Shown: one piece after another, positions 4,151 to 55,939 of the stretch
How positions within the stretch are numbered: the first letter of the stretch is position 1
How the letters are laid out: the number at the start of each line of letters is the position of its first letter
From: Cordylochernes scorpioides
Taxonomy: Eukaryota; Arthropoda; Arachnida; Pseudoscorpiones; Chernetidae
DNA length: 64,000 nt
NCBI GenBank assembly: GCA_030710605.1
Contig: CP092875.1
Coordinates: forward strand, 61,776,427 to 61,840,426
Reading direction: 5' to 3'
Position numbers and translations under genes: made by a program
The notes under the pieces: model-generated
Databases searched by the model: none
The model's input: only the letters and a program-made list of their open reading frames with translations
What the model was told of the DNA's origin: nothing

Positions 4151-4164
4151 GAAAGCAGAAGACA

Positions 4165-6014: not shown

Positions 6015-6167
6015 ACAGAGTCGACCGGGGGCTGCCTCCCCGCGGTCCTTGCTGGACACAGTAGATAGTTTCCTCTTTTGCTGTGTTTAAAGGCCACCGG
6101 TATAGAAATCCTTCCAGACACGTTGTCTGGGAGGTGGTGTTTCCAGGTACAATGTCCAAGCACTAGC

Positions 6168-9100
6168 TTAGATACCGTTACTTGGCTTATGAGTTGAACA
6201 GAATAGCAGCGAAGGGCATGCTTCGCATGCCTGCTTGTGGACTGAAAGGTCTGGGTGGCCATCTGCTTCTAGGGTGTACCAACTGTGCTTAGGTGGGATC
6301 CTCCAGTTCTTGTTTATTTTGGCTACTGTTTCTATTTCTTTAAAAGTAAGTTTATTTTTCTGTAGCAAGGGTTCTTTTGTGCCTTTTTTCGCTAGCGCAT
6401 CAGCAGCTTCATTGCCTCCAATGCTAACATGTAAGGGTATCCATTGTAGGTGAATTTTTGAGGTATTGAGAGTTTTTGGAGATAACCAATTATGTTCCTG
6501 CTTACTTCGTCTCTAAGTTCCCCTGTGTGACTCAAGTGTTGTATGACACTTCTACTATGAGTAAAAATCCATATATCGTGATGTTTAGTATTTCTGATGG
6601 ATTTTAAGACTTCATAGATGGCTATAAGTTCTGATCTGAAGATTGAGCAAAAATCTGGGTTTCTTCTGTTCATTTTCTCATTGCCATTTGTGGGTTTAAT
6701 GAGAGAGCCACTGCCAGTGTGTCCCAACTCGTCTCTGCTACCATCGGTATAGATAGTTATTGCATTTTTAGGAATTTTATATTAATTATTTCTAATGATA
6801 ATTGTTTTAAGTATTCTGATTTTTGGTATTGTTTGTTGGTGGGTTCGTTTAAAGTGGCATTAAAAATAACATTTTGTTAGTGGTTCGCATGTAGATATTT
6901 TTTCAGCTAAATAATATTTTTCCACTTTATACTTTAAAAATCCATTTCTTTTGGCCAGGTGGAGAGGGCCTTCTTTTTTGAGTCTTATATTGGGTTCCCA
7001 AATTAGTATGTAATTGAAGGTTCTGTGTTTATTTTCATAACTCTTGATTTTGTTTATATATTTTGGCAGATTGTAGCTTATTCTATCCTTTAAGGGCATA
7101 ATGTCTGCCTCGCAAAGTACAATATTATTAGAACAGGTATTTCGAAGACCTGTAATAATTCTAGGAGCATTTAGTTGTATCCTTTCCAGTGTTCTTAGAT
7201 TTGTTTCAGATGCTGTACCATAGATTTGATATCCATATTCCAAGATAGCTCTCATTAGAGATGTGTAAGTTAATTTTAGTGTTGTTGCTTCAGCTCTCCA
7301 CTCTTCCTGAAATATATTTCAAGATTTTTAGTCGGTCTCTTCCTTTTCGAACAACTCCTTCAATATGTTTACTGGAGTTAATTTCTGGATCCAGGGTGTA
7401 GCCGAGATATTTAGGATGTTTATTATATTGCAATTGTTGTTCTTTCAGAATAATATTTGGTCTTATTTTGTATAGTTTCTTATCGGTAGTAAAAAGACAG
7501 GTTTCAGATTTTTGGGGGTTAAATTCTAATTTATGTTTATTAGCAAATTTTTCTAGGTGGAGAATAGTCTTGTTCAAATCTCTTTCAGCTTTTTTCCAGT
7601 TAGTGTTGCTGCTCCATAGAATAATGGCATCAGCGAAAAGTCCAATATTGGTTTTATGTGAAAATTTGTCTTCTATATGCCTGCAATAAATAGGGTGAAG
7701 AGAGTTGGGCTAAGGACTGATCCTTGTGGTAATCCTTGGTACAATTTGAAGGTTTTAGATAGAGTGCCATTATATTTGACCCTGATGTATATATTTTTAA
7801 GGGAATCATTTATCCAAGTGATAGCTTTTCCATCAATTTTGAAATGTTTGTATAATTTTGTAATTAACTTGTTTTTCCATACCCCTTATCAAAAGCTTGT
7901 GTAAGGTCTAAAAAGCAGCTATGGTGTGGTTAGTTGGCTTTTTGTTTTGTGCATCTTTTACCTTTTGTGTGAAAAATAAGAGTTGGACTATTGTGTCATG
8001 ACCTTTCCTAAATCCATATTGTTCTTCTGGTAAGAGATTTCTTGTGTCGGGGTGGTAGGTGAGTCGTCTGAATATAATTTTTTCCATTAATTTGCAGCAA
8101 ATATTTGTGAGGGAGATAGGTCGGTAGTTTTTTGGGTCATCAGCAGATTTGTCAAGTTTTTTAATGGGAATTATTGTTGCATTTTTACAGTCTTGAGGCA
8201 ATTTTCCAGTTTTCCAGGAGTTATTGAAAATATTAAGAAGTCTTTCTTTGCCAATTTTGCCCAAGTTTGATATCATTCGGCCATGGATTCCATCTGGCCC
8301 AGGAGTCTTGTTTAGGTCAGTGTTTTCTAATGCATAAGCTAGCTCTTTCATATTGATTTTTTTTCATGGAAAATATTATAAGTGCTGGTGACATTTTTAC
8401 AGTCATGAATAATCTTTCGGGCCTTTTTTCAACCTTGATTTTACTACTTATTTGATATGAATTACCTAAAAGATTGGCAGCAATTTTGTCATTAGTTGCT
8501 GGTGTACCATCTGTATTCTCAATCATATTTGTGTTTTCAGTTTGTGGCTGGACTCTGCCAATTTGTTTTGCCAAATTCCAAAGTTTTGTATTTGGGTTTC
8601 TTGGGTTCAGGTTTTCACAAGTTTGTTTCCATTTTTCCCTTTTCACATTTACGTATAATCTTTTTATTTTTGCAATCACAATGTTCAGTTCAGTTCTACA
8701 ATTTGTTTGGTTTTGGGTGCACTTTTTTGTAGTTCATTTCTTTTAGATATAAGTGTTTGAATATTTTTTGCCTGGTGTATATAATTTGGAATCCATTTCT
8801 TAATATAACCTCTTGGTATTGAAACTTTGGCTGCTTTAATAATGGTGTTTTCGAAAGATATCATATTAGCCTTTTTGAAGTTCCATAATTTTTCTTAATT
8901 GAGCTAGTTTTGGTCTTGGTGCTAATTTCTATCAAATTAGGCAAATGATCACTTTCAAAACCTTTTAATATTTGCTTTTTGCATTTGTGGACAATGTCAG
9001 GATAGTAAAAACTTATATCAAGGGCTTGTGCAGTATTATAGCTGTAGGAATGATGGGTAGGATTCCCATCATTTAAGCACATGAAGGCATTGTCGTCAAA

Positions 9101-9390
9101 TATGTTTGATAGTATTTTGCCTCTTGGGTTTGGCGTAGAACATCCCCATCGTTGATGTTTGGCATTAAGGTCACCTAAAATAATAGTGTTGTCTGTAAGA
9201 AATTGAGCCATTGTTCCATCGTCAATAAATGTATTGTTTGGAGGGTGATACATATTGTATATGTTGACGGCTTTGTTTTGATTGAGGTAGACTTTGATAC
9301 CTTGGGTTTCGAGGTCTAATGTGTTTGGAATATCAACGGCTATGTCCTCATAGTACAAATAATTGATTAAAAATGCTAGGCCACGCCCTT
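6168..9390 (-). pseudogene. LINE C: I/Jockey-type non-LTR retrotransposon ORF2, endonuclease to RNase H, reverse strand
   Basis: Read from 9390 down: an endonuclease missing its N-terminus (ILGDLNAKHQRWGC, ALDISFYYPDI, ESDHLPNLIEIS), a linker (about 8860-8350), then a reverse transcriptase with TPGPDGIHG, NYRPISLTNICCK, FLDLTQAFDKG and GLPQGSVLSPTLF. The active-site box reads FADA at about 7640 instead of FADD, so the second metal-binding aspartate is gone. The thumb (ILEYGYQIYGTAS) follows at 7255. An RNase H domain lies at 6727-6392 (SIFRSELIAIYEVL). Several frameshifts split it. The 5' end is cut at about 9390, directly abutting LINE A RNase H on the other strand. Confidence 0.85.
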
Positions 9391-10195
9391 TAACAGCATT
9401 TACAGATGGATCTTCAGACCTTACCCTGAGTAATGGAGGGGCCGGAATTAACATAATACTGCAAGATGGAACAAACATCAACATCAAAGAAGGAGCAGGA
9501 CAGATTTCGTCAAACTTCACTTGTGAACTGACAGCTATCTGGAAAGCCCTTGATGTATGCCTTAACCAACCATCCCTGCATCAAGCAGAAGGAATTTTAA
9601 TATACAGCGACTCCATATCCGCTCTAGAAGCAATTCAGAAGGGCAATACTAAAATCACACAGAAAATACACTCGTTACTTACCCAACTGGAACCATTGGA
9701 GAATAACTGCATTCTACATTGGATCCCTGCCCATGCTGGGATCGGGGGTAATGAAATGGCATTTGAATTGGCAAAGGAAGCCAGAAAGTTGAGCCAAAGG
9801 AAAGAACAAATGTCATTATTTGACGCTGATTCTTTGTCAGAATACAAGATAATTAAACAAAAAAATTTGAAAAGATCAAAATGCGAAATAAACTCTGAGA
9901 GAAAAATGACAAAAACTATAACAAGACTTAGAACAAAACACTATAAAGGAATGACAATACATCCAGATGGCACAAGAACCTATAGGGCATGCAACAATTG
10001 TCCTGGTGTGGAACTTACACCTACCCACATATTCTGATGTCCAGCAATGGCCGCAGCCTTGCAGAAATTTGACATAGACCCAGAGCAGCAGCTTTACACA
10101 CCCAAGATAGTGGACATTGCTGCTGATGTAATGGAGATGCATGGTACATCTGAGGCTCTTTATTGGACACGACAACAACAACGGCATTCCAGAGT
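9385..10195 (+). pseudogene. RNase H and C-terminus of a LINE, probably the 3' end of LINE A
   Basis: An open frame through 10037 encodes an RNase H domain: RPLTAFTDGSSD, FTCELTAIWKAL, IYSDSISALEAIQ and WIPAHAGIGGNEMAFELAK, the expected four acidic blocks. It is followed by a cysteine-rich tail (CNNCPG, THIF, stop, CPAMAAALQKF) as in I/Jockey-type elements. A single stop at 10037 separates the last part. Strand and family fit the missing 3' end of LINE A, with LINE B and LINE C lying between the two pieces. The right end passes into MLE-1 sequence at about 10185-10195. Confidence 0.75.
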
Positions 10196-10329
10196 AAAAT
10201 AAATTATTAGAGATAGATACATATTTTTCAAATGAATTAAAATAAATATAATCGATACTGAGTGGGAGTTGAATTAAAAATATTAGAAATTTATTATCTG
10301 GGAAACAAACCGTATCTAAAATATCAATT

Positions 10330-10731
10330 TTCTTTTTGCTACATGTTTTAATTTGCATTTACCTATTTTACATATTTCTGATTGTAATTGAAAATCGTTA
10401 ACCAATTCTTCATACTTTTGGCGAAGTGGTGTTTTATTAATTTGTTATTTGATATTATTAGGGTTCTTTCCTGTTATTCAAAAAGGAAAAATACGTGTCG
10501 ATCAGTTATATTTTTCAATTTATCAAACAATTTGGCCGCTGAATCTCTGATTCTGGTAGAGCGCGATCTGGCGAATAAAATTGTAACTAAAATCAATTTC
10601 GAATTTTACATTATTTGCCATAAAAAATCCCATTGCATCCTGAACACGATGGTGTTTACCGCATTGCTCTAGCGCGAATATTCGCGGAGTTATTAATTTT
10701 TAAAGTTGTGCGGGACTTTTGGATCACCCTG
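10330..10731. repeat. Right terminal inverted repeat of MLE-1
   Basis: Reverse-complementary to bases 1-180 of this window and to the left tip of MLE-2 at 40445-40850. The outer tip is GGATCACCCTG, preceded by a GTGCGGGACTTTT block. It is more diverged from MLE-2 than the two MLE-2 arms are from each other, suggesting an older insertion. Confidence 0.85.
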
Positions 10732-10985
10732 TACTTTCCTATTGAGTTTCATTCTCCATATAGCAAACATTTGAATGTATATTGCTATTTGATATATCTA
10801 AAAGAAAATTCTGATATCACTTTACGTATTTTTATGATAATAGTTTTATATTATTTTTATATATTTTGTCCTTAAGAAGTCTTATACTAAATATATATAT
10901 AACCAAATATAATTTGAAAAACATCAATTTCTAAATATATTATAACTTATTATATTTTATGTTCGAATTTTAAAACAGAGTCAAC

Positions 10986-11150
10986 ATGTTTTCCAGATGG
11001 CGTGATGGATTATCCGACATGACATCTGAAAAATGCAGAAAAATGTTGCCCAATGGTGAGTTTTCAACGTTTGAAAAAATATATATGTTTAAGAGTCTAA
11101 AAATCTATTTAATTTCAGGATATTATTACGGAATGAATTCAAGTGATTAA
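10986..11150 (+). CDS. Small ORF of 54 codons with an internal in-frame intron-like segment; hypothetical
   Basis: ATG at 10986 opens a protein starting MFSRWRDGLSDMTSEKC and ending GYYYGMNSSD. Inside it a donor-like GGTGAGT at 11055 and an acceptor-like ATTTCAG ending at 11118 would remove 63 bases without changing frame. Another exon-like stretch follows at 11257-11300, with a TTTTTATAG acceptor and an ATGGTAAGG donor. I recognise no domain. It lies 250 bases outside MLE-1. It could be the remains of a host gene or chance. Confidence 0.25.
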   Translation: MFSRWRDGLSDMTSEKCRKMLPNGEFSTFEKIYMFKSLKIYLISGYYYGMNSSD

Positions 11151-12012
11151 ATATAGTTTTAAAACCCGTTTATCAAAAATAGATAGTTTATTAGATTAAC
11201 ATATTCTTTTTGCAAGTACTAAATTCCAATGCCTCTCAAAATATTATTTTTATAGAAATTTCTAAGGATGAAGGAATAGTGGACCAAATTATTATGGTAA
11301 GGGGCATCCAATTTTTTTTATTGTGGAAAGGGTAAAATGAAAATAACGTTTATTCGGCGTCAATTTATCCCAAATTAAATTTAATAGGTTAGATTTTAAA
11401 ATATAAATTGAATATCGTCAATTTAAACTGTTAATAGTGTATTGTAAATAGAATTGAATAATTTAACAATTGGGTTCTGAAATAACTCCAAAAAAACTGA
11501 TGTCTCAAACAAATAAAGCGTTGTTTAACTATATAGCTAGAGATGAATAATTCAGTACAGAGAATCACAGTGATCATGGAGCTTTCAAATAGAGAATATC
11601 AAACATAAGATTCTAAGGTTTTCTATCTTATCAAAATACTGTCTTACCATGACATTTGCCAAATATTCAGTTATCATTATATCAAATAATTAAATATGAC
11701 TCTCACGATTACTTAAAGCTTTGATGAAAAAATATGAATTTCCAAATCTTGAAAATTGTTATATATTATTCATGTTTTATTTACTTTTCATATATTTTAA
11801 TCACTTTCTACAAATTTCATTTTCAAAAACGTATTCCTGTGTTTCAGGCACCAAGCATCTTCTGCAAGATTGGATTACCATTTTGTGAAAATTCATTTAT
11901 TTTATACTTTTCAATTCTAAAACATGTCTCATTCTAACAAATACGAGAGAAGTGAGTATGTTCAACTCCAATAACAATTGGTTCTTTTAATTTAAAATTC
12001 AAAGAAGAGGTT

Positions 12013-12204
12013 TTGGTTGAGAGTGTCTTCAGAGGCTTGGCTAGGTTCCTCGGCGATCCAGATAAGGCGAGGCAGCAAAGGGTTCTGGAAAACAATTTTA
12101 TCAGAGGACACCGTTACGGCAAATACATAGATCTTAGGGGAGCAGAGCGACGGCATGCATCTGGGTCACGTATATTTAATGGTCTCTCATTGGAGAATTG
12201 GTAA
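12013..12204 (+). CDS. Unrecognised 63-codon ORF, less AT-rich than its surroundings
   Basis: No ATG begins it; the frame is open from about 11999 and closes at 12204. The protein is basic and polar (GLARFLGDPDKARQQRVLE, then IRGHRYGKYIDLRGAERRH). The next 250 bases, to about 12470, are also less AT-rich than the surroundings and contain a second open stretch (IPAKRSHILPPLFLDSASN). This could be a decayed exon or transposon fragment. No family recognised. Confidence 0.3.
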   Translation: MVESVFRGLARFLGDPDKARQQRVLENNFIRGHRYGKYIDLRGAERRHASGSRIFNGLSLENW

Positions 12205-12479
12205 CTATTCTCTAGGAATTCCTTCATGGCAGAACAAAGAAAGACCATTGGAATTTTTTAGATACGGATAGAATCACATATCCAGATTTCTGGTGGTTAG
12301 ATATGAAGTTCTCTTGAATATACCAGCCAAGAGAAGTCATATATTGCCACCATTATTTTTGGACTCGGCCTCAAATAGGGGACATCAAATGACAGCAAGG
12401 ATGTCGCAAGGTTTGTGGCCTTGTCTTCCACTTAATAGGAAGAATTCTTCGAAAGGAGAATGAAGCCTCTGCATTTACC

Positions 12480-14300
12480 TCAAACTGAGAGGATAAACTT
12501 GAGAGATTAACATAACCATATAATGAAAACATCAAATACATTAATTCCAATTAATAAACCATCACCTACAATAATTTATTTCTTAAAATAGATTTCATTC
12601 TTAATACTATCAATTATAAATGAATGAATGATAATTAATTTAAACGCAATAATATTTTTAGGACCAAATTAATCTCAGAGTAATAAAGAACAATAATTAG
12701 CATATATAAATATCAATGCCTAGATTGAAAAACATAAGATAGAAGAATTTCCATAGGTGTCAAATTAAATGATATTTTATAGATTGAGCATTGGGATAAA
12801 TAAGAGGAAATATCTCACAGAGGTAAACTGTTTGGTGAACTGCTACTGATATATTTGAGTTTAATTTAAGGATAGGCAGTAACAAATCACACCTTCGAAT
12901 AACAGAGTTTCATAGCAATAAAACGAAAATTCCTCTATTAACGTAATTCCGGCCATTGATTCAAAAATAGAAAATATATCACCTTAAAGCTTCCAAAGTT
13001 TACAGATAAATGATTTCAGCAATTATTGAAGCTATGCAATTAAGGACTCATTAGAAGGACGATTTTTAATATCATCTTTCTTTGACAGGATCCTGACGAT
13101 CAGGAATTTGAGGTTTCTTGAATCTCAGTATTTCATAGAACAGTATCAGGAAGTGTACCCAAAATATTTAAAATTGAACTTGGTTTATAAATGGGGTTTG
13201 ACTTGTAAGTTGGTGACACCAGCAACTGTGAAGTTCCGTGCGAAGAATATATTGTTAGGTTATTTGAAAATACAAATTTAAAAAGTAAATTTTCTGGGAT
13301 TAGTTTCGAAACATGATAGCAGCTAATTATATTTGATGGACCACAAAAAATGTACAGGAAATTATCATACAAACATTATAAAGCCCTGGATACTTGAAAT
13401 CATTAAGATTAATATGACACCTGCATTTATATATTGAAATATATTTAATAACTCAGAGATCACAAATTGTATGAATTATTGTTAGGTTATAGAGAAAACA
13501 CATCATAATGGGATTCTCTTGATAAAATTTATATTGAAACGCGAATTTCTCTTATGTTTAAGATCAAATCTTCTTGTGAAAAGGTTATGTGAAAATAGAG
13601 GTAGCAAAAAACCTGAAGGGAAGAAGAGAAAATAACCTAGTCTGAAATGATCACATAAACAATAACTTAGATGATTATATACAGTTCCTTTTGATTAAAA
13701 TGCTGTTCAGGAATATTTTACCACCAAGATATAATGAAATTTCTTTTGATAATTAAAATTCCATTGAATAGTAATTTGCCTAAATATTTTAATGAATAGA
13801 GAAATGAAATTTATAGAATAAGATTTTATAATTCAGCTCAGATAAGGTAACGGAACAATTTGTCAAATAATGGTATTAGTACTTGGGGATTAGTAATTCA
13901 TTGTTTTACAGTATTTTATATTACAATTACTAGACGATATTAGAGTACTTTGGATCAGCTTGTTATGTTTTCAGAAAGTGTATTTGATTTCTCATTGATA
14001 GTACATCAATAAATTCCAGCTGGCAGGATTATGCTATATTTTATAAGAGTATTTATCTTTAAAAGACATTCTGATGATATTTTAGGAGTAATATGAATTG
14101 TTTAAATTTTTAAATAGTTTTTTACATGGATTTTATCATCTTTAATATCATATTACATCATTACATTAATAATTTGAAATTTTATTGAAGGAATGATAAT
14201 TTTATCAAAGATTTAAACTAGAAAGTACATAGTTACATAAATTTGGTTTTGGACACTATATCACTACAAGCGCAAGGTATTTATTCATCAAACCCATATT
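12480..14300. other. AT-rich intergenic DNA, nothing recognised
   Basis: Only short ORFs occur on either strand. No transposon ends, tRNA-like sequence or long inverted repeat are visible by eye. Confidence 0.6.
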
Positions 14301-14309
14301 ATATTTTAA

Positions 14310-15115
14310 GGTAGCTAAAGTAAATTATTGTGGAATATTTCAACAATAGGACATTCGATTACGTGGTATAAAAAGATCACCTTTCAAACCTTTTTCCATT
14401 TATCACACATAAGTGAGAAAACAATAGTTCCAATCAGTATAAGCCATGAAGTTAAATGATATTTCAGACTGGAAGTGTGCAACAAATTCTGATATCGTCT
14501 CTGAATATTGGCAAACCTGGTTAAATAGCACGGCTGTTTAATAGTAGAGCTAGGTATTCTCAATTAAAAATCATCACGAATTTAAGTAGAGGGGGGGGGA
14601 TATGAAAAAAATTATTAATTAATTATAGAGTGAGATTTACAAATGAATTTGTAATATATTTATGTGGGTTCAAACACATTTCATAGGAAAAGTTACTTAT
14701 TTTTAATATTTGACTCTGAATGATAATTTCTCTATCCAAATTTGTCTCTTCATTACAATTAATTCTATCAGAGCGACTGTAGACGAAACAGGAAATGCTC
14801 AAGGTGAATATATTGAATCTATTTTCAATTCTATTAATATTTAATTCAGAGGGAAAAATCTAAAATTCTGAACGAGAATGACGTTGAAATAATTTAAATG
14901 TTGGATTACAACTGCAACTATAATTTGTGAGAATATGGAAATGAGATTTATATGCTAACATATATTACCAAACGTTATTATCTTTTAAGATAGCTAAAGT
15001 AAATTATAGTCGAATTATTCAACAACCCAATATGACACTTTCAAATTCGTGCTAGAAAAAACACCTTTCAAACGTTTTGTAGGTATCAAACCAGTGTAAA
15101 AATATTAGTTGAAAT
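14310..15115. repeat. Pair of diverged direct repeats about 680 bp apart
   Basis: 14310-14436 and 14990-15115 align through TAGCTAAAGTAAATTAT, a TTCAACAA block and ACACCTTTCAAAC (ATCACCTTTCAAAC in the first). The rest is diverged. The pair is an old local duplication with a period like that of the array further right (about 19.6-26 kb). Confidence 0.55.
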
Positions 15116-15119
15116 CAAA

Positions 15120-18100
15120 TATATCTTCCATGAATATTATATAAGAGATGAAGTTGAATAATTTAAATTTTGGAGCAATTCATTCTGTTGTTTTAATATT
15201 TAAATTCTTTCAGAATAGTCATATTAGCATTAATTTGAGCTTGCTTCTTCATGGAAAAACCTGTATGCGGAGGTTGTCGCGGAAAAACTTCAAAATATTA
15301 AATTTTATAGATATAAAAAGTATATTATACAAATCCAATACAACATTCCAATCATCCAACATCAATGCAATCAACCTTTCCCCTTATAAACCTAATCAAT
15401 ATAAAATATAGAATAAGTTGAATATCTTTTAATTAATTATTATTTGTCTGACTTGATTAGCAGGTTAAAATTCCCCTAGTGTTCTATATAGAAACCAGAT
15501 GTTCATCATTGGAACAAAGATCACAATTGAGTTCTACAATATCAGGATTATCGCACTGTAGAAAATGATTTTCATATTAAATTGCATTATTTTGTTAATT
15601 TTCAAATTATTATTTCTATATGAGAGAGAAACTGACCTTATATCAGAAAGAAAAATTCACCGAGATTTCTTTCAGAAGAATCATGATATAAATTTGCGAA
15701 AGAGAATAATGCATTTTTTACTGGAACAATTTATTAGTGTAAACATTAAGAATTAGTCCTGGTAAAAATATTGAAATTTGGGATTTTATATAGGTTCATT
15801 TAAATTAATTGAAGATCACTTATTTTTGTAAGAATTGAAGTATGCCTATGTTATACCTAAAATATGTATACGTAAATTAATGAAAATAATAGTACTGGAA
15901 AATTGCGATGTAAATAGCCTTTAATTACCTAATAGGAATCGAACAAAACCTTGACTATGGGCTAAATTGGTGGGGTAATGGGGTAATAGGCTGGGCCCTA
16001 TCTGTAGAAACATATTATTCACTGGTATATTGGCATTATAATATCATTTACCCAAGTGATGGAAATTCGCCATCTTAATTAATATAATTTAAGCACTTAC
16101 AAGAAACAATCAAATTAAAAATCTTGATTCATGAAATTTTTGTTAGGATTATTTTATGGAACTATTTTGGAAGTGTATACTTTGAGTTTTCCTATAAAAC
16201 ATAACCAACAATCTCAATATAAAACGAATATAATTTATCCGATAAACTGAGATCGAAATATTTAAAAATCCTAGGTGAGTAGAAGTAAACTCCAGAATGT
16301 ATCATCCTGACAATAAATAATTAGTACAGTACGAATATAGGCAATTTTTGATAAGATCCGATTTGTTTTGACTAGGTTCCTAGTCTAGTAAATGTTTTCT
16401 TAGGGTGACGAGAATGGATGATACATGTGTAAAATTCCTACTTCTGAACCGAAACTATTAAACCCAATTAAAATCAGCTCAGAGAGACAATATACAGAAA
16501 CGGATAAACATATCTGATTATATAATAAATTAGTATAATAATCTTCAATGCATAACTGATTAATTACTTGTTACATCCTTGGTCTCTGATCTTTGGAAAA
16601 TAAATTCTAAATAACAACCATCTTGAACGAACAGTAAATCGAAAGCAAATATTCTATAGGGACAATGTTGAAGGGCATACGATGGAATCTTGCAATATAT
16701 ATTGTATAAAAAAAGTTTATAATTTTAATTTATTGAATCAATCAATAGGTTTGCGGCTATAATCACAGAAACATATGAGAATAATTATATCTTCACATCT
16801 AACGGTATTTCTGACCCTTTAAAATTATAGCAGAGTTTTAATATATTAAATTCTTTACAACAACTTGAAGTAGCCTTGATATTGTCCAAGATCATGTTAG
16901 GTAACGAATACAAGCTGGGTTAATTACCCTATATATATATATAATAGAAGAAAGGTTTTTTGCTGCACAGAAAAATGGTTATTGAAGATAAATTTAGTTG
17001 AAATTTATTTCTTTTGATGCAAATCAGACAGAATTGAAGAGGGTATTTAGAAAATTATGGACTATGATATGTTTGAAAAATATATTTTATGAATTATTTG
17101 TAAATTTATATATTTTATAAATAAAGTTTTTGATACAGTTATACATGTTTGAGAATTTGCCAAACAGAAGTTTTGTTTTATATTCAGGTATGAGCTGTGC
17201 TATTTGTCCTAAATAAAATTTAGGGAGCAGAAGAGGGTTTTTGAAAACGACAAAAAAGGTTTTTAAATTACATGAAATATCTCTATCTTGGAAAACTTAC
17301 AAATTTCTATAAATTGCGAAGGATCTAGAGGGTGTATTATTTTTATTACTGAAATATAATAGCGCGAAATCTAAGTACTCCTAATATAATTTGAAGTTTT
17401 TTAATATAATTTCTGATAAAGAGAAACAAAAGCAAGCATCTAGAGTTAAACTATCATTCAAATTCATATAAATATTTTGAAAATTACTTTGCAGAAAATG
17501 ATGCTCAAGCTATTTCTAATCATTAATAGATTAATATACAATTATAACACCTTTTCTGAACTAAATTCTACGATCATTTCAACTGAGAAATATATTTGAT
17601 ATCAGGAAAGTATGATTTAATCAGAGGGAAAATGTAATGTATTTCATAGAGCAATATTTAAACTTAGTCTTTTGTACAAGAGTAGGTTCTTGTGTCGACG
17701 ATGAAAATTATTAAGTTCTGTTATCTCACATAATATTCTCACACGTTAAATAGACCCAATATTCACTTATGAAAGCATATTTGGTGACCCTCTCATAGAA
17801 TAATCAAATCATGATGATGTCTGGATCATGATATATTTTGAATTTGAAATTATTGAGAAAAATGTTACATTGATATATTTATGAAGTCTCCGAAGAATAA
17901 TTTTCTAGTTTTTCATGAAGAATATCATCATTTGAAAATTATATAATATAATCAATAGGCTAATGTCAATAGCGTTTTCAAATTTGAATATACATATAAA
18001 TTACCCTACTTTGGAATGATATTACATTACAAGGGATATGTACCGATTTATCAAAACCATATTTTATTAAACTATAAACAATGAATAGTGACAAAACTAT

Positions 18101-19640
18101 TGACACTGATAATTTGCTAGATATAAAGGCTGACTCCTCAGAAATAATTTTTAGGAGAATTCTGTAGGTATTATATAGGTTTGAATCTGGTCCTATGTAA
18201 GGAAATTTATTTACAATGTAATATTTTCATCAGTAAATCCTTCCCCTATCTTTCATGATATAATTTTGAGCTTAAATAAATAATTTCCTCATATATTTCT
18301 ATATTCACTCTTTGATATAGTTGTATCAAAATTATTGAGAATATAGATATATATTTTGTGTGGATAAAGATATAAATTCTTAGTGTACTGACGAAACAAG
18401 ATACATTCTAGTTAAAACGTTTTGATTTGCTCTTGTAAAACAAAGAATGAGAATGAAATTCAACACGGTTAATCCCAAACATGAATTCTTCGAAGGATCA
18501 GCTCTTCGTAGAGGTTCCGCGCGATTGAAAGGATTCAACATCTATAATATAAATTGATCGTTATATTTGAAGAAAGGTTAAACCAATCAGAAATGTCAGC
18601 CGAAATTAATAAGCCTTGAGAATTCAGTATATTTCAGTAAATTCAGTATATTTCAAATCAAAGTCTATATACCTCATTAATAGGTTAGAAATTATAAATA
18701 GTATAAGTACTTCATATTAAATATGCCTTTTATTGAAAGTATTTTTCACAATATTGTTCTGAAAAATCATTTGGCCATATTAAGTTTTAACTTAATGTGA
18801 ATATAGTTAATACATTGTCAGAAGAAAATGTATTGGAAAATAAAATATTGAGATTTTAAAGGAAATTATAAGATCGATAATGAATGGATAAGGAAATATG
18901 TTCCAAGTATATTATTATATGTCCTATATTAAATCCAATTTACATTGTAACAAATTTCTTCTTATCGCTTCTAATTTTATAAAACATAGTTATTATAAGC
19001 TTTTCTGTTAAATTTTTGAAAATGCATAAGGAAATGGGTTAAGATAAGTAAAATATTGGACTCATTTTCTATAGATGGTGCTAGAAAATTCGTTATTTTA
19101 ATTTTAATAAGAGCATTTGCAAATTTGACTGAGTCATTTAAGAGAGTAAAATTCTTCGGAAATTTATCTTTTGTTCAAGTTCAAATTCCAATTCAGTTTT
19201 TAAATCTAATTTGATTATATATAATTTTCCCCACAATAAAGGTATTTGATTGGAATGTGAGAAATCAGTGAGAGATAGAGAATTTATAAAATTTTCTGAG
19301 TCGTTTTATAGGAAAATACTTGCAAATCACATAGTTGAATGAAAAGTGGGCAATCTCTATAATATTTCTTATAACCAGTCTGAATATCATAAATTTTCAC
19401 AGAAGATATTTGTCAAATATATTTGAGAAAGTTCAATCTAGCTTGAAATGAAATTTATTAGACATCGATTGGGTTCCAGAAAACCTTTCATATCAGGTGT
19501 AAATAAACAAACCAATATTCATCATGACGATACATAATAACATCATGTTTTTAACATAAAAATGTGCTGCAAATAATGATTTGAAATTTTAATTTTTTAC
19601 TCAAATGAATTGGACAATTGGCTTCAAATACCTATATAAA
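15120..19640. other. AT-rich intergenic DNA with no supported gene
   Basis: Open frames at 15148-15411 and 15565-15756 are low-complexity translations without recognisable motifs. A G-rich stretch at 15969-16005 contains GGTGGGGTAATGGGGTAAT. A short direct repeat, ATTCAGTATATTTCA, occurs twice near 18623-18652. Nothing else stands out. Confidence 0.5.
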
Positions 19641-20376
19641 CTCTTTTGTAGTCTCAAGTGATAAAACGATGTTTTTAAAACTGCTTTTGGAAATATCATG
19701 ATTTAATAATTGTGAAATATGAATAAATTCAGGATAGAAAATAGGAATTTATTTATAACTTAATCTATAAAATGTACACAAATTCTTATAAATAAACAAT
19801 ATACAAAAATTATTTTTAAAAGTAAGTGATCTAATTGTGGGTGAGCCAAACCGAAATGTTAAAACTACTTTTAAAAACATCATGATATAAATAGAGCGGG
19901 ATGAATAAATTGAGGAAAGAAAATAAGAGAGAACTGATAAATCATTTTAACATAATCTTTAACAGCCCAGTCTTATTCATTTAGTGCCTCAATGAAAAGC
20001 ATAATTTGTATATTTTCAGGTTTGTGAGTAATAAATTCTGTAAAAGAATCTTCATAAAACTCTTTACAAAGAGCTAAAGTATTCTAAAGCTAAATTAGAA
20101 TCTGTTTTTTTTTTTGTGAAAACATTAGAAAAGAAAATCTTCATTATTGAGACATGTATGAGAAAATTATAAATTTTCTAAAAATGGAATATGAAATTCA
20201 AATTGTTTATATATAACCTTCCAATTTGCGAATTCAGAAATTCGGTCAATTCAGAAATGTATTTGCAATATAAATACTGGTAAAGTACATTAAAAGAGTT
20301 TATTATTTCAAACAATCTGGTCAATAATCTCGAATATATGTTTAGGAAAATTCTCCTAATTAGCAGAATTCTTATA

Positions 20377-20690
20377 ATTGAGAGTTGGTTATCTTGCTGT
20401 AATAAATTCTTGTTGAAAATAGTGAAATGGTTCACATTGGCTCACAGAGAGAGAGAGAAATCGGTCTGAATTAAGAAAATTCATCTGAATTGAAGCATAA
20501 CACACCAAAAAAAACTTGATTTCACATATCGATATTTCAATAGCCTATGCATAATTACTTCTGATTTCTGGTAGTTTAAGCAAATTCACTGAATGGCAGA
20601 TTTTTCTATTTGAGTTGGTTACCTTCCTGTAATAAATTCGTGGATAAAGGAGTATGTGAAATGGTTGAATTATTTATAGGCCTAAGAATA
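20377..20690. repeat. Tandem pair with period of about 235 bp
   Basis: 20377-20435 and 20611-20670 share GAGTTGGTTA, CTGTAATAAATTC and GTGAAATGGTT in the same order. Downstream, both have an AATTCATCTGAATT- or ATTCGTCTGATTC-like block. Local duplication; no coding content. Confidence 0.5.
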
Positions 20691-20699
20691 CAACTTAAT

Positions 20700-22550
20700 T
20701 ATCTAAATTCGTCTGATTCTGAAATGAAGTATGAAACTGAAAGGAATTTGATTTCTTAGAACAATAGTTAATAACCTATACCTTTTATGAACTAAATTTT
20801 GTTAAGTGTTTAAATTTTTAGTTTGAATTCAAACACTTTTGTTAAATATCAAAAACATGATTATCCATCTAATTGGCATTTTTTTAAATGTTGCATTTGA
20901 TAGCCAGAAAGGTTAAATACTTTAAGCAATATTTAAATATAGTCTTAGTAAATTTAGCAAACCTTTACTGTAAAATAACGACCTCAATCTATATTACATT
21001 CGATATTTTTAAAATGGTTAAAATTTCTTAACTCTGAAACGATGAAACTGATAAAATGCTTAACTCTGAAAAGTATTTAATGGCAAATCAGAGTATTGAG
21101 ATTTTCATAATTACTTGCAATAAGAATAAATATGGATTAACAAACATTTCTTTTAATCAGCGTCAAGCTAGAATTCTAGCCATTGTATTGAGTAATGAGT
21201 TTCAAATCTTTTTGAAGAAATAATATGGAACACTTTATATCTGACAAATTCCCATATCAACTCTCCTGGTCTTAATATTTTTTATCAATTATAAAATGAT
21301 CATGTTCAACCTTGGTCAAGGTTTTTTTAAATACCATAAAATTATCTGGATTTCAAATTTATATTTGATAACGGTTAGTGTGGAGAAATAACTTGTTTCA
21401 CACATACTTAAATCTAAAATGAAGTGATGCAAATAATTGAATAGAAAGAATTCAGTGAAATCATTAACTCTATTCACCTATATTCTATATCACTCAAATC
21501 AAAGGCAATATGTAATTGTATATGAAATTATAGTTCTACCTGAAATATCTACAAGAAAGAATTGTAAAATTGAATGATTCTACAAGTACATTTACTACAG
21601 CATGTTTAATATTCAAAATATTTCTAAGATTATAAACAAGGCTAAATTCTTTGTGTATGTTTAAATTCTGATACAGACCGGTATATTCTTCATTGCTTTG
21701 TGGATTATGATGAGATAAGCCAGAAGATAAAATAACTCGTGATTATTTCTATGATCTGAGAAACTATATTAAAAATTCTTTTAGAAAACAGGTATATTAA
21801 AATTGTGGACTGGTACATTCTGAAAAAGTTTACTCTAAAGAAATAATCTGCTATGAAATATGAACCATTGAGAGTAAATCAGTGCATTAAATGATTCCTG
21901 TCGACAAATTATTAGAATGAACTTTATGATTAGAATGGAAATCTTCTGACAAACAAATTTTATAAATATGATTATGGGAAAACTGAATCTGTTCGATGTT
22001 CTCACAGGAATATTATGATGTTTATTTAGCATATTGCTATGTAAATAATTTTAGAAATGCCTAAATCTTGTTATCGGAGTTTTATTTTAGTGAATTCATA
22101 ACAAAATCTTTACACAGCCATGATGGATATTTTAAAAGATATTAAACCGCAAACCTGTTAAATATTGAAGAATTGGGTAATTCATATTTCTATATTTGAT
22201 ATAGAGGGGAAATGTTATAAGAGAGAAAAATTCAAATTTAATGAAAATTAATATTACTAGAAAACATAACTTATAATATTAAGATCCGAATCTCTATATA
22301 ATGATATATTTATATTAATTATTCATTGATATGGCCTGGTCTATCTCTTTAGAATTTTATGAAGTATTCTGTAAGTGATATAGAAATCACTCCCTACAAT
22401 AGAGAAGGAAATTCTACCTCTCAAATGCTGATTATATCAAATCTATCAATGGAATATGTATCAATTTGTCTAGTAACTATTTTGTTGAAATAGAAAGTAA
22501 ATAGAAAGCTGCAAAACACATTATTCAATGTATACTATTATTGAATCATG
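20700..22550. other. AT-rich intergenic DNA, nothing recognised
   Basis: No ORF of interest, no transposon ends and no copy of the conserved core repeat were found here by eye on either strand. Confidence 0.5.
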
Positions 22551-22560
22551 ATAAATTAAA

Positions 22561-22689
22561 ATTCTTATCAAAAGTATTGACCCAGTCTGAATATTAGAAG
22601 GCAGTGCTGAACAGCAGATCTTTGATACATATTCAAATGCTAACTGGGTCATGTGCCCTATACATGATATAGGGGGTGGCGGAGGGTTA
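22561..22689 (+). ncRNA. Structured core repeat, copy 1 of 4 (candidate noncoding RNA or DNA element)
   Basis: First of four copies of a 125-129 bp unit. Outer stem: TGACCCAGT near the 5' side pairs with ACTGGGTCA, with a further GAATAT/ATATTC pairing inside it. Central hairpin: TGCTG-AA-CAGCA. Third stem: CCCTATA, loop CATGA, TATAGGG. The 3' block GGGGTGGCGGAGGGTTA is G-rich and identical in all copies. No protein frame is shared between copies. Strand is assigned arbitrarily from the G-rich 3' block. No promoter or terminator is evident. Confidence 0.5.
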
Positions 22690-23716
22690 TTTCAAACTGA
22701 AAATTCAATTTACCAAATAGATATTAACAAAACTATTTGAAAGGATTAGAGGAGGGATTGTAGAAGTATATTTATAATATAATAAAGACAGAATCTGAAT
22801 ATTTGATATTTATTTAGTATAATTGATATAATTGGTTGAGCTTGAAAGAAATATTAAACTACTTTTAGAAATTTCATGTTATAAAAATTGAAAGAGATAA
22901 ATAAATGTAATATAAAATGAGAGAGAATGGTAAATCATTGATCTAGGATTCATCTTCAATTGCCCAGTCTTTTTATGATGTTTTATTGAAGAAAAGTATT
23001 TCAAGGGGTTGGAATCATTTTGAAAAGCCCATTATTAAATATATTTAAGGGAAATGATAGTATTTTTCATATATATCAGAAATGTAGCGGTGGAAATTTG
23101 TCATATAAAGTAATTTAAATCAAATCGGTTTTTAAAAATCTTCAAAATATACTCGCGATTATTGCAATGTCTCTAAAATATTTCAAATAATTGTAAATTA
23201 TTATTTTGAAGTTTGTGAAATGAAACCTATGTAAACTTTGAGAATGTAGATTATCATTTAACAAGGGAAAGGATTTTTTTAATTGGCTATAGATAAATTT
23301 GAAAGTATTCTGAAAATGATCAATAGTAAAGGTCTGTCCCAGGATTAATCATCCTAAACAATATTTAAATAGTTAGATTTTTATTGAAGCAGTTTTTTAT
23401 TTGTATTGCGTTCCTTGTTATAGAAAATTGCTGGTTTGAAGGAAGTATTGTCTTCGTTAGAGAAGGGAGTTGGTTGAGATTTTTCGAGATCAAATGAATC
23501 GGCTAAATTTAATTCTTAAGAAATTGACATCTCTCTGTAAGATAATTCTTTTGGTACATTATTGTGATATTTAAAAAATAGGTTAAAATCAAATCATGAA
23601 AATATGTAATATATTTAATGCAATTTTATTAATTCATTCAGATAAAACTCTTCATTTATATAAATGATTTTCAGATAATTGAAAATTCTACCTTCAGCGT
23701 TTCTTTATGTAATAAA

Positions 23717-23841
23717 ATTCTTTCAAAAGAATTGATCCAGCCTGAATAGTTGAAGATATTGCTGTCAGCAGATCTGTTATATATTCTATGGCGCAATGGG
23801 TCATTTGCCCTATACCTGATATAGGGGGTGGCGGAGGGTTA
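23717..23841 (+). ncRNA. Structured core repeat, copy 2 of 4
   Basis: The outer stem is kept with a G-U wobble (TGATCCA with TGGGTCA). The central hairpin is TGCTG-T-CAGCA with AGAT/ATCT outside it. The third stem is unchanged; its loop reads CCTGA, the only change in the last 37 bases, and it falls in the loop. The decayed sequence after it resembles that after copy 1. Confidence 0.5.
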
Positions 23842-24459
23842 AAATATCAAAATTAAATATTTAGTATGAAGAATATTTATATTGTATATCAAAACATTTT
23901 CAAATGATTATGGCAGGTTGGAATAGTTATATATTTATATAATATGACGAGACAATATTTTAATGTTTAGAATTAAATGAGGAGAATTAAATTGTCCATC
24001 TTTTGAAAAAAAAAAATCTAACCTAAATAAATACAAAATGACTATTAAAAAAAGCTGCACAACCTTTGAAACAACAAAATTGTTTTTTAAAATATTATTT
24101 CTTTAGTTGGAAAATTTCATAGGCATATCAAGAAATGTTGTTCAAAACCTATAATGGAAATTTATGGAAATAAACAGATATATTGGAAGTGCCCTTGATG
24201 GAAAGCAGGATTCTCTCATCTTTGAACTGTGTTCTTTCTTTAGAAGATCCTCAATCAGATAATAATGTTAGGAACCTTGGAGGTTTGAGAGACCTTTAGG
24301 TATTCACCTATTTTGTTGGAACACGATTAAAAATTGAATAACGAATTGAATCAAGAATTGATGCACCACATAAAAAACAATTTGAGTATAAATATATAGA
24401 TAGATCATTGCGTGTTCTTTTGAAAAGATAATCTAATTAAAACTGTTTTATCGAATTAA

Positions 24460-24586
24460 ATTCTTATCAAAAGACTTGACCCAACCAGGATATCTGAAGA
24501 TCTTGCTGAACAGAAGATCTATTGTATATTCAAATGTTAACTGGGTCATTTGCCCTATACATGATATAGGGGGTGGCGGAGGGTTA
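24460..24586 (+). ncRNA. Structured core repeat, copy 3 of 4
   Basis: The outer stem is TGACCCA with TGGGTCA. The central hairpin differs: AGATCTT pairs with AAGATCT around a CTGAACAG apex, so a longer stem replaces the CAGC pairing. The third stem and G-rich block are identical to copies 1 and 4. The upstream 260 bases align with those upstream of copy 4. Confidence 0.5.
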
Positions 24587-25538
24587 TTTTTGATATAAAA
24601 CAAAATACTCAATTTGCAAAATATATATTTCAAAATTCTATTTAAACGGATTAAGTCAATATAATTAATCTATTTGGTTGAGATAAGTCGGAATGTTGAA
24701 ACTGCTATTTGATATCTCATGAAATAAAATTTGATCGTGATGAATTAATTCAAGATAAAAATGAAAGAAAAACAGGTAAATCAGACAAGGGCTTATTAGC
24801 ATGATACCTCAATGGACAATCGTATTGTACAATTTTGTATAAACCGGCAAATTCTCTAAATTTATCATCATAATAATCATATTCATTACCTTAATATTAG
24901 GACAATTAATCAAATATCATGTTTGAAGATGTTTTTAATTGTATAATTATTCAAAACTATAGATTAAATAAATTTATGCTTCATTCAGTAAACCTTCAAT
25001 ATAAGGCGGTGAAACGTCAAAATGAAAATCGTATATTAATAGCCAAATTTATATATAGGTTAATTCAAAGTATATATTTCAATTTTTACATTGATAAAAA
25101 AGATTTTTAAATATTTTTAAGTTTCTAAACAGATAATTTCTATGATTATTTTCAATTGTGTCGACCTATCACCAAAGTGCTTTTCGAAAAAGGTCTGGTT
25201 ATAAATTGAGTGGGGATGAATACTTAAGAATAAGTTACTCATTATTTAATAAAGTTTGAAATAAGCGTCAGAAGGGGAAAATTGTTGTGATAAGTTTACT
25301 CATTTATAGTGAATACAATCCGATTTCAGTTCAATATTCCGAATTCCTATCCTTTTTCATTTTTGAACTGTCTCTTTTTTCCAAAAGAAGCCTCAATCTG
25401 AAAATAAATAGCTGAGTATCTTAAAAGCTTTGAGAGTAATTTAGGCATTTACCTATTTTGATAGAACAAGAGTAAAAATCGCATTATGAATTATATAAAA
25501 AATTATTAAACAAAACAAGAGTATTTTAAGTGGTTTAA

Positions 25539-25665
25539 ATTCTTTACAAAAGACTTGACTCAGCCAGGATATTCTAAGATAATGCTGAACAGCATGTCTG
25601 TTATATATTCAATGGCAAAATGGGTCATTTGCCCTATACATGATATAGGGGGTGGCGGAGGGTTA
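25539..25665 (+). ncRNA. Structured core repeat, copy 4 of 4
   Basis: The outer stem is kept with one G-U wobble (TGACTCA with TGGGTCA). The central hairpin is ATGCTG-AA-CAGCAT with AGA/TCT outside it. The third stem and G-rich block are identical. Three small tandem hairpins start 77 bases downstream. Confidence 0.5.
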
Positions 25666-25741
25666 TTAAATTGAAGAAAATATAATAATTTATATCTAAA
25701 AGAATGCACAAAACGCTTATATAAAATTTTATACAAACTTC

Positions 25742-25870
25742 AAGATCATCTGCATTGAGGTGGTCTTTTATTTTTGACTTACAAAAATAAACTTACAACT
25801 AGATCATCTGGATTGAGATGGTCTTCTGGTTTTTATCTCACAACAAGATCATCTGCTCTGAGGTGGTCTT
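25742..25870 (+). repeat. Three tandem small hairpins
   Basis: Each unit has a 9-10 bp stem and a six-base loop: AAGATCATCT-GCATTG-AGGTGGTCTT at 25742-25767, AGATCATCT-GGATTG-AGATGGTCT at 25801-25824, and AAGATCATCT-GCTCTG-AGGTGGTCTT at 25845-25870. All stems close as RNA if G-U pairs are allowed; the middle copy changes a wobble to a Watson-Crick pair. A worn fourth piece is near 26008. Drawn on the plus strand because the wobbles only form in that RNA. Confidence 0.55.
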
Positions 25871-26029
25871 GTATTTCTACAGACTCACAACAAGTTTATT
25901 TGCATACGGATCATAGGCTTTGTGGTTTTCTAGGGATAAAATATGAATATTTATAATAAAATATTTCTATATACACTATAATTTTCCACTTCCATAATAT
26001 TGAACTTTCTGCATTGAAGTGGTTTCTAA

Positions 26030-27300
26030 CACATGTTAATATATAGATTGATATAAAAATATTATTTTATAGCATCTTTATTTATCTCTCTTGACATATA
26101 ATTTACAATAAATGAATTACACATTCAGAATTACTTCTTTGAGGTGATTGAAGGAGTTCACAAAAAATATTATTGAGACGAGAAAGATTTGTTGAGATAG
26201 AATATAATGGTCATACACCATAGAGGTATACTTCTTTTAGTGCTTAAACAACTATAAGATAACAACTTATTCGTATAAGGATTGGTTTTAAGAAAGGAAA
26301 ATCCCATTTTGGGATCAGACCATTTTGTTGCATAAATACTTTAAAAATTCTGTATATATCTAATTCCTTAGAGTCCTGTATATAGAATGTGAAAATTTTG
26401 AAACGAAATTATTATTTGAATTGTAAATATGTGTATTTTGAATATTATATAAATTGGTTGAATAAAATTGTTTTACAATATTCATGCCTTTTTATTTATT
26501 TACACTTTTAACACCCTATATTATACACAATCAATCAAAGATATAACTTGTTTCAAAATTCTGTTTAGCTATCATTGCCAAGTACTGATTTGCCACCACA
26601 GGTTCAGAAATCACCAATGGTAAAGGGATGGGTTTATTGGCTCAGAGAAAAATCAACTGTTCTCTTCCCACCGAGGATATCAATTTTAATTGATGATCAC
26701 ATATTACTGGTAGTGTCAAAGTTCAGGAACGAATCATCACACTAATATAAACTCTTTAAAATGTTTCCATATTTAATCAAACTAGGCCTTCGAATTTTAT
26801 ATTTTGAATATACACAAAAAAGTCCATTAAAGATATTTGAAACTTCAAATTACATTTAATTATAAATTATTATTATTGAGATAGTATCAGTGTTTGTCGA
26901 TCAAATTTATTCAAAGTGGAATATTTAAATATATCTAAATCAAAATACTAAACTCTTGTTTTTATTTGTGTTGAAGGCGTGATCATCATCCAGTAAAAAA
27001 TGCAATTTATATTTTAAAAAACATACACGAATCAAAAAGATAATTTTATTTGAAAATATTTAGATGGAATGCTTTCTCTTTGTGAATTTATTGCAGAATA
27101 TTTTCCTCACAAATCCAGGAAATTATTTTTATACAATTTTTATATTTGTAACTTGTGAAAAATATAATAGCGTATTGTTTATTTAGAAGCAATACATGGC
27201 ATCTCATTAGCTTAAATACAATTTTGTTAATATTTTGTTTTAAACATCACACCCCATTTTCTCGAACATATTTGACCATCGAGTTTGCGGTTTAATTTGG
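26030..27300. other. AT-rich intergenic DNA
   Basis: A possible polyadenylation signal, GAATAAAATTG, at 26459-26469 is the only signal I would note. No ORF with recognisable motifs and no clear repeat ends. Confidence 0.4.
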
Positions 27301-27328
27301 CCATCTAATTAACAGCTGAAAGGATACA

Positions 27329-27490
27329 ATGTCTCAAGAACTTTACCACCCACTTGTTCTCAAGGCAAATGATACAAAATATATTATTAACGACTTCTCG
27401 CTATTGGCTCTGGCAAAAAAGAAAGAGTCAATAATGGGGAGAAAGTATGTATACTATGCAGTTAGGAAGAATGTAAGTCTTGTGACTTAA
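27329..27490 (+). CDS. Small ORF of 53 codons ending at a possible splice donor; hypothetical
   Basis: ATG at 27329 in the context ATACAATGT opens MSQELYHPLVLKANDTKYI and continues NDFSLLALAKKKES, with ordinary amino-acid balance for so AT-rich a region. A consensus donor, AATGTAAGT, lies at 27471-27479, so it may be a first coding exon ending RKN. No domain recognised and no partner exon found by eye. Confidence 0.3.
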   Translation: MSQELYHPLVLKANDTKYIINDFSLLALAKKKESIMGRKYVYYAVRKNVSLVT

Positions 27491-28004
27491 CACAGTCTGG
27501 ATGATGTGAGTCGTGGAAGATAAACCTGTCATGAAGAAATATAAGTCCTGGATAAAAAGGAAACACTGATTTAATTGAATATAAGCTTATATACCTAACA
27601 CAGATATTGAAAGGAAGAATAAAATGGATCCTCAACATGTGGAAAAGTGATTGAACTTACCATAGAGCTAATTAATATAAATCCTGTTATTATCGACTTA
27701 TAATACCACAAATAATTTTTAAATAAACTCTACCCCTAAAATGTGTTAAATAAAATTGTGATTCATTATTGTCGCATTTTTTTTCACTTACAATTTTCAT
27801 TCACCTCAAATCTTTGTATTATACTAAAATATTGCATACTATTCAAGAGAGCTGATATATGGACAATAAACGAGGAAACTCCAGGAGAGCGAAGTGAAAA
27901 ATTTAATTTTTAATTTTCTCCATAGCTCCCAAACCTCTGTTATATATATATATATGTCTATAATTAAAAATTTATATATTGAATCAAAATATAATTAATT
28001 TTGT

Positions 28005-42704: not shown

Positions 42705-43369
42705 CCCAGAGTAAAATAAATGATCAGGGATAGTTGAATTTTTCAAATGAATTAAAATAAACATAATCGATATATGGCTTCTGATGCCAACTGTGCGGAC
42801 GTGTTTGGCATCGCTTGTCTCGTACCGCGAATGGGATTTAACTCTGCATATCACAATATAGTATTAAAAGTAACTCCTAAAGTTTACCAAATTTTAAGAA
42901 AAATGGGTAATGAGATATACACCGATTTTGAGCGATGTTCTACACAAGAAGAATATTTGTAAGACAATGCCAAAATTGTTTTGAATTTAATACGAACCAT
43001 AAAACAAAAGACTGCCAAAACATTAAAATATGTAAAATATGCGGTGTACAGGGTAGCCACAACTGTACTGAAGCGCCAAATTGTCACAATTGCTCTAAGC
43101 ACCCTAAATTTAAAAACTTTTCTACAAACCATAAATCAAATTCAAGTGAATGCCCGATTTACAAATCACAAATAGACAAAATTATCCAAAGGACACAATA
43201 TTCTCAAATATACGAGGGAAATGATGTAGCAAATACAATTTAAAGCTTAATCATAAATATATTAATATCCTATATGATTGAAAATGTGAGATCTATTCAA
43301 CAAAATGTAAGAAAAAGTTTTACTGCAATAAGTAAACTACAGGCCAACACTAGAGATGACCCACCTGAC

Positions 43370-43460
43370 AAGGACGAGTGGGTAACACACTCGTTTCCAG
43401 ACAGTCATGAACCGGGATCGAATCCCGCGTTAACATTTTGTTTGATATGTGAATATCCTT
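43370..43460 (+). mobile_element. 91-bp tRNA-like insertion in LINE D endonuclease
   Basis: It lies between two copies of CACCTGAC (43362-43369 and 43461-43468). It contains GAGTGGGTAACACACTCG and a B-box/T-arm sequence, CGGGATCGAATCCCG. Size and boxes fit a tRNA pseudogene or short SINE. Insert plus one duplicate is 99 bases, exactly 33 codons, so the endonuclease frame stays open across it. Confidence 0.65.
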
Positions 43461-52188: not shown

Positions 52189-52400
52189 AAATAAAAACTA
52201 TCAAAAAGCAAATCTACTCCAAAGAGAGTAAAAAAAGGCAGACCAGACAAAGAACATTATTCCGTTAACGAGATGAGGTGTGTATGGTTATTGGTTCGGC
52301 CAACAACAAATATCCAATTTATATACACATATATTTTTACATAATGAGGTTTTGAAAAATGCAAATAATCTTCATCTATTTACATGCACAACAATTTATT

Positions 52401-54638: not shown

Positions 54639-54657
54639 TATATACACATGAAAAAAT

Positions 54658-55010: not shown

Positions 55011-55054
55011 TAGCTTTTCTTGATTAATGAAGAATGGGTATTTGGCCAATTCTG

Positions 55055-55935: not shown

Positions 55936-55939
55936 ATAT

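Follow-up and report, generated by a model that had tools for sequence, protein, structure and literature searches.

SNORD115/116 and SNORD113/114 are C/D snoRNAs encoded in clustered tandem arrays at imprinted loci. The protocadherin cluster carries a CTCF-bound element, which is a conserved promoter/insulator element of a tandem gene cluster. A study in Drosophila (PMC6288889) is said to have predicted novel conserved RNA structures. This study was concerned with a repeated element in a 64,000-nucleotide stretch of the pseudoscorpion Cordylochernes scorpioides (contig CP092875.1, positions 61,776,427 to 61,840,426), here called the window, that can be compared with all three. Like the SNORD arrays, it consists of small conserved units about 1 kb apart within less conserved repeats, in lineage-specific clusters. 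Unlike them, it is linked to a kinase family and has no match in Rfam, neither in the window at the gathering threshold nor in stretch L032 up to E 5 (stretch L033 gave one sub-threshold match to a bacterial sRNA, E 1.6). No C/D or H/ACA box layout was seen on reading the element consensus by eye. With the protocadherin element it shares a G-rich tail and the repetition of one short constrained element through an amplified gene cluster, but here the element lies downstream of the gene and has hairpin arms with a variable spacer and a compensatory stem. As with the Drosophila structures, compensatory changes are what point to RNA candidates, whereas here the candidates form a multicopy family tied to one gene family. 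Its likeness to a clustered small-RNA array, or to a control element repeated through a gene cluster, is the most that can be claimed, and we file it in neither. No description of it was found in the open-access literature searched.

The features of the window that bear on the element are as follows (scores are from a profile search).

10732 to 28000, plus strand: window part of the segmentally duplicated block that contains the array; right edge approximate
16849 to 16958, plus strand: possible decayed copy of the element; 21.3 bits, E 0.01
17114 to 17240, plus strand: decayed copy; 45.9 bits, E 3.6e-9; 14-24% divergence among three segmental duplicates
22094 to 22217, plus strand: probable decayed copy; 22.8 bits, E 0.004; 16-21% divergence between duplicates
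22561 to 22689, plus strand: element copy 1; 143.6 bits
23717 to 23841, plus strand: element copy 2; 134.3 bits; loop base C instead of A
24460 to 24586, plus strand: element copy 3; 145.1 bits; another stem in place of the central hairpin
25539 to 25665, plus strand: element copy 4; 144.2 bits

The first-pass annotation had reported four copies at the positions given here for copies 1 to 4, all on the plus strand and spaced 1156, 743 and 1079 bases apart, and all of these values are correct. The copies are real, but four is too low a number, as the core of the element was found 38 times genome-wide. Directly after copy 4, at 25730-25878, a 46-base unit (AGATCATCTGnATTGAGGTGGTCTT) occurs in three related copies. 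Further copies of the segmental block begin near 61.863 and 61.892 Mb on C13. Within the block, window positions 10735-13150 are better conserved than most of it among the three segmental duplicates; GTAAGT or GTGAGT follows an ATG-bearing stretch near 11056, and there are more acceptor-like edges. From its sequence this part looks like exons of a spliced gene. At 951-10358 and 41598-59577 the window has open frames resembling mobile-element remnants, apparently of LINE-type reverse transcriptases and mariner-like transposases, together with a 601-codon frame that looks like a retroelement with an integrase.

The element is a constrained non-coding sequence of 110-130 nt that is arranged in same-strand arrays. 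It begins with a long 5' hairpin, which is followed by a short hairpin of the form CCCTA-spacer-TAGGG and then by a nearly invariant tail, GGGGGTGGCGGAGGGT(A/T)A. In copy 1 the 5' hairpin has the outer stem TGACCCAG/CTGGGTCA, the short hairpin reads CCCTATA-CATGA-TATAGGG, and the G-rich tail completes the copy. The outer stem is TGACCCAG/CTGGGTCA on C13 and TTATCCAGC/GCTGGATAA in two C7 copies. The outer stem TGAYYCA/TGGGTCA, which had been described for the window, was found in all four window copies, and the central TGCTG/CAGCA hairpin in three, copy 3 having another stem there, as had also been described. The identity of the four 3' ends had been put at 37 bases apart from one loop base; it extends over 36, with the exception in copy 2, and the 37th base from the 3' end is G in copy 1 and T in copies 2-4. 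A third hairpin 3' of the tail is hinted at in some C13 and C7 copies and is not general. The strongest constraint in the element is on the sequence of the tail, which is constrained base by base, loop bases included. The tail could also form a two-layer G-quadruplex.

Constraint was measured among the three segmental duplicates, which have 77% identity over 15,863 three-way aligned columns. Differences were found at 6 of 432 positions in the 3' 36 bases and at 75 of 1,086 compared positions in the 5' parts of the four copies, and the flanks differed by 10-19% (five flank stretches, per comparison, gap columns excluded). The earlier view that the copies are better conserved than their surroundings is thus borne out. 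The three decayed or possibly decayed copies diverge by 9-24% between duplicates, much like flanks. Between the units of an array, the flanks are loosely alike and the edge of the core is sharp. Selection on the element is well supported by the comparison of duplicates, by this sharp edge and by a gap in score between intact and lower-scoring copies.

This constraint comes without coding potential. In the reading frame of the core, 6 of 43 changes were synonymous and 37 nonsynonymous, and over the whole element any one frame was stop-free in at most 7 of 37 copies; a protein-coding exon was rejected on these two grounds. No tRNA was found in the window and the Pol III B box GGTTCGANTCC was absent from the 37 copies with 50-base flanks, which leaves a Pol III gene with an internal promoter unsupported. 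A viral origin was also rejected, as the pattern had no match in IMG/VR.

At a limit of three mismatches, the 32-base core has 38 sites in the 2.6 Gb genome, all inside 540 kb of C13 (23 sites with no mismatch, 12 with one, three with two and none with three), and the reversed control gave no match. Copy 1 as query also gave 38 matches, which all fall in the interval 61.768-62.308 Mb of C13, and a 21-base stretch of the hairpin, searched with two mismatches allowed, gave 36 genome sites, all in the same region. The 38 core sites form nine groups, six on the plus strand and three on the minus strand. The profile search, which covered 287 kb of the 540 kb, identified 37 copies scoring at least 117.9 bits and then, after a gap without any match, 25 others of no more than 48.3 bits. 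The best of the lower-scoring matches, at 61.768 Mb, is a truncated copy with a near-intact core, and this is the 38th core. We regard the remaining ones as decayed copies, two or three of them belonging to the window, except that the weakest probably match by chance.

Outside this region, more relaxed patterns were needed to find relatives. The 18-base tail with up to one mismatch has 63 sites. C13 has 36 of them, C7 20, C20 four, and C1, C2 and C8 a single one each; 18 of the 20 C7 sites lie between 63.6 and 75.2 Mb. The C2 site we take to be chance, since it is GC-rich and lacks the stems of the element. Eight stretches were read, drawn from the 25 tail sites on C7, C20 and C2. Five C7 stretches (L046-L050) align with the element over its full length, and the C7 stretch L051 and the C20 stretch L052 have the short hairpin and tail in common with it and a different 5' part. 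The tail is common to C13, C7 and C20 copies, and the rest of the C7 and C20 copies is far diverged. A loose pattern, which joins the short hairpin to the first part of the tail, matched 209 sites, compared with one in the reversed control, and the first 100 listed were all on C7. Sites with a spacer of 5-12 bases numbered 65 (32 on C7, 30 on C13 and three on C15), those with four bases 96 (91 on C7, four on C20 and one on C23) and those with 1-3 bases 48, where all 39 among the matches listed were on C7. The C15 sites, where the spacer is 12 bases, may be chance. Among the matches listed, the loose sites occur in clusters; most belong to C7 and C13, and C20, C23 and C15 have a few. A profile search of two 10-kb C7 stretches found no element in them, and blastn of these stretches against the C13 region gave, among the first 60 matches, the kinase and mostly short or repeated matches.

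The open reading frame beside the arrays encodes an intronless protein kinase (PF00069) whose nearest solved structure is PKC iota. One copy (L011:7363-8475) ends 1.5 kb left of the window and 24.2 kb before the window array. As the kinase genes are outside the window, the first-pass annotation had no view of this link. In the genome search, in which 110 of 1,083 candidates were scored, the kinase was amplified at C7:63.4-66.1 and 74.3-75.0 Mb, C13:61.76-62.32 Mb and C23:11.3-13.2 Mb, and also on C19, C3 and C20. Many of the amplified copies are open frames of about 354 codons; one C7 copy that was read is a complete 354-codon open frame whose start codon lies close to its 5' end. Over the last 285 codons of three C13 kinases, dN was 0.006-0.009 and dS 0.17-0.23 (dN/dS about 0.04), which indicates strong purifying selection on the kinase. 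On the other hand, six of the eight long C13 copies are interrupted in the aligned part by one or two in-frame stops, and in the one stop-bearing copy examined the stop is upstream of the kinase domain. The C7 and C13 kinases have about 54-60% protein identity. DFG is the usual kinase motif, and in the two kinases examined DYG stands at its position. Beside one C7 kinase copy there is a long array of short related units (GACCAAAATCCCGACA, L037:3566-8800) that is unrelated to the element. The PF00379 cuticle-protein domain also forms large tandem clusters in this genome, at C10:97.4-99.1, C12:63.0-64.6, C13:8.1-8.4, C16:83.7-85.0 and C23:7.1-7.5 Mb, and has at least 150 genome matches (150 of 333 candidates scored), which mark the host as an arthropod. 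Spidroin_N and 7tm_6 gave no match, either here or in a control genome.

The arrays have a regular position relative to these kinases. For nine of ten C13 kinase copies or fragments, the next same-strand array lies 3.7 to 24.2 kb downstream; the tenth, which is on the minus strand and in two pieces at 61.841 Mb, has no array within 60 kb, and the count leaves aside an eleventh kinase, a 67-residue fragment at 62.201 Mb. On C7 a same-strand site was found within 20 kb downstream of 22 of the 26 full-length kinases, and upstream of 11 of the 26, the genes being in tandem. No opposite-strand site was found near the 26 full-length C7 kinases, and no C7 site lies within 20 kb of an opposite-strand kinase. 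The C7 sites form 62 clusters of one to five, with a median spacing of 1.4 kb. In a position test of 162 C7 sites and 42 kinase places (second pieces of three split copies excluded), 65 sites were within 20 kb downstream of a same-strand kinase, compared with a mean of 15 and a maximum of 40 in 2,000 cluster/strand shuffles. No scored kinase was found within 20 kb of 80 of the 162 sites, at 110 of 1,083 kinase candidates scored. By the same measure, kinase-free clusters of the element lie at C7:52.60-52.81 Mb and in parts of C7:64.0-66.5 and 74.7-75.2 Mb, and they include most of those with a five-base spacer. The C23 site lies 8.9 kb downstream, on the same strand, of a kinase copy distant from the other C23 copies. 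The four C20 sites have no scored kinase nearby, and no site with a spacer of at least four bases was found near the kinase groups that are less than 52% identical to the query (C3, C19 and C23 at 11-13 Mb).

Order and strand relative to the kinase are thus kept on C7, C13 and C23. On C13, kinase and array were duplicated together, and the duplication of a single ancestral unit may be enough to explain the shared strand and order. An antisense duplex between the tail and the kinase mRNA was rejected, since the longest duplex was 11 bases in each of two kinases, no longer than the shuffled expectation (means of 10.9 and 10.2).

Folding of the element was analyzed within C13 and then across C7 and C13. 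The RNAalifold consensus energy of the 37 C13 copies was only -2.93 kcal/mol. In C13 alone, 91.5% of cells were paired in the structure described above, narrowly more than the shuffled mean of 90.6 (2 of 500 shuffles reach this value). The covariation score was reached in 1 of 500 shuffles, and the number of pairs changed on both sides was not unusual (53 of 500), so covariation within C13 alone is weak. The combined test used 28 rows, of which five were the C7 copies and the other 23 were taken from the 37 on C13. Here the covariation score of the two-helix structure exceeds that of all 500 shuffles and of every slid control, and neither the five pairs changed on both sides (134 of 500) nor the further pair types (125 of 500) were unusual. 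The compensatory changes of the outer stem between C13 and C7 are G-C to U-A, A-U to G-C and C-G to U-A, and we judge about four changes to be independent, since the C7 rows share ancestry. In the short hairpin the CCCTA/TAGGG arms are kept in the copies read around a spacer of 2, 4, 6 or 9 bases. The strand is less clear. The 5' hairpin is more stable than its shuffles, with a mean z of -2.55 on the plus strand (25 of 37 copies below -2), and is about as stable when read as the minus strand (mean z -2.27, with 19 of 37 copies below -2). For the whole element, folding is better on the minus strand, at -2.42, than on the plus strand, at -1.44. There were 45 G-U cells against 40 A-C cells, a neutral balance that gives no strand signature and no strand asymmetry of wobble changes. 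The first-pass annotation had proposed selection on structure. That proposal is moderately supported, in that the outer stem has compensatory changes and the arms are fixed around a variable spacer, but covariation within C13 is weak and the wobble test neutral. Taken as sequence evidence, the compensatory outer stem and the kept arms lean towards a folded RNA, not decisively.

Three identities had been suggested for the copies: a noncoding RNA family, a protein-binding element and the module of a mobile element. We consider that the first leads, with about an even chance that the copies are small structured noncoding RNAs of a family not described before, or RNA modules that form part of a longer noncoding transcript; in either case the plus strand would be read. 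The noncoding RNA family leads because of the outer-stem covariation and the variable-spacer hairpin, yet the covariation within C13 is weak, and a protein-binding element keeps a share of the probability. The RNA reading also draws on the sharp-edged constraint, the score gap, the missing coding signal, the stability of the 5' hairpin, and the order and strand kept beside the kinase. What speaks against it is that the whole element folds better on the minus strand, that the wobble test gives no strand signature, that the consensus energy is low, that constraint is strongest on the sequence of the tail, that neither an Rfam match nor a B box was found, and that 80 of the 162 C7 sites lack a scored kinase within 20 kb. 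In that case the copies would be a cis-regulatory DNA array of the kinase cluster (an enhancer, promoter or insulator) in which proteins bind the tail and the inverted repeats at several sites jointly. We hold this to be possible but on the unlikely side. The constraint at each base of the tail, including loop bases, would suit it, as would the C7 clusters of one to five sites at a median spacing of 1.4 kb, the variable kinase distance of about 4 to 24 kb, and inverted repeats that could serve as binding half-sites. The folding and wobble tests, which gave no clear strand, are also in its favor. However, half-sites at a fixed spacing were not found; the distance between CCCTA and TAGGG varies from 2 to 9 bases between kept arms, which is unlike a rigid two-site DNA motif. 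Nor would a bound DNA lead one to expect compensatory changes in a stem whose arms are 60-70 bases apart, or a single strand relative to the kinase throughout, though duplication may account for the latter.

The other explanations fit the distribution and sequence of the copies less well. A repeated exon of an unannotated spliced transcript downstream of the kinase, coding or noncoding, would agree with the edges seen in stretches L046-L052, where the element of C7 copies is preceded by AG and followed by GTAA, once GTAAGT, and the splice-site consensus is an AG acceptor and a GTAAGT donor. The C13 copies, however, mostly have GTTA and are without an acceptor-like edge, and any one frame stays free of stops in 7 of 37 copies at most, so that we think this reading improbable. 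Local homogenisation by gene conversion, without function, would be favored by tandem and segmental duplicates, but 37 copies share one short constrained stretch with identical edges, their flanks are 10-19% apart between duplicates and more between units, and the tail is also found in C7 and C20 copies whose other sequence is far diverged. The same stretch and edges everywhere are not readily explained by gene conversion alone, and we give it very little weight. The least probable explanation, with next to no weight, is a transposable element or its conserved module. The loose motif does have about 200 copies, but the strict core and strict hairpin are confined to 540 kb, the loose sites listed are clustered, chiefly on C7 and C13, and the copies lie in tandem units or segmental duplicates with related flanks, not dispersed to unrelated sites. 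The transposon was rejected on this distribution, and the mobile-element module of the earlier annotation is unsupported for the same reason: the strict core is not scattered and the looser sites listed are clustered.

Under the noncoding RNA reading, an RNA would be made from the plus strand and the hairpins would form in that RNA. They would present the invariant G-rich tail as a surface that could be recognized by a protein or a partner RNA, and the site of action of the RNA would be the kinase cluster, which in the simplest case it would regulate as a noncoding RNA. A further, more speculative suggestion, which we think rather unlikely, is that the kinase and the structured-RNA array have been amplified as a two-part unit to dozens of loci on several chromosomes. 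The RNA would then be a dedicated partner or regulator of the kinase family, possibly in the germline or within a selfish system.

If the element acts as DNA, it would be an unusually clear case of a control element that is repeated through a large family of tandem genes. If it is transcribed, it would be a new structured noncoding RNA family with a clue to its function, namely its position and strand beside one kinase subfamily. That position beside the kinase would have survived old duplications (the C7 and C13 kinases are about 54-60% identical), and the family would allow one to ask directly how an amplified signalling gene and a small RNA came to be passed on together.
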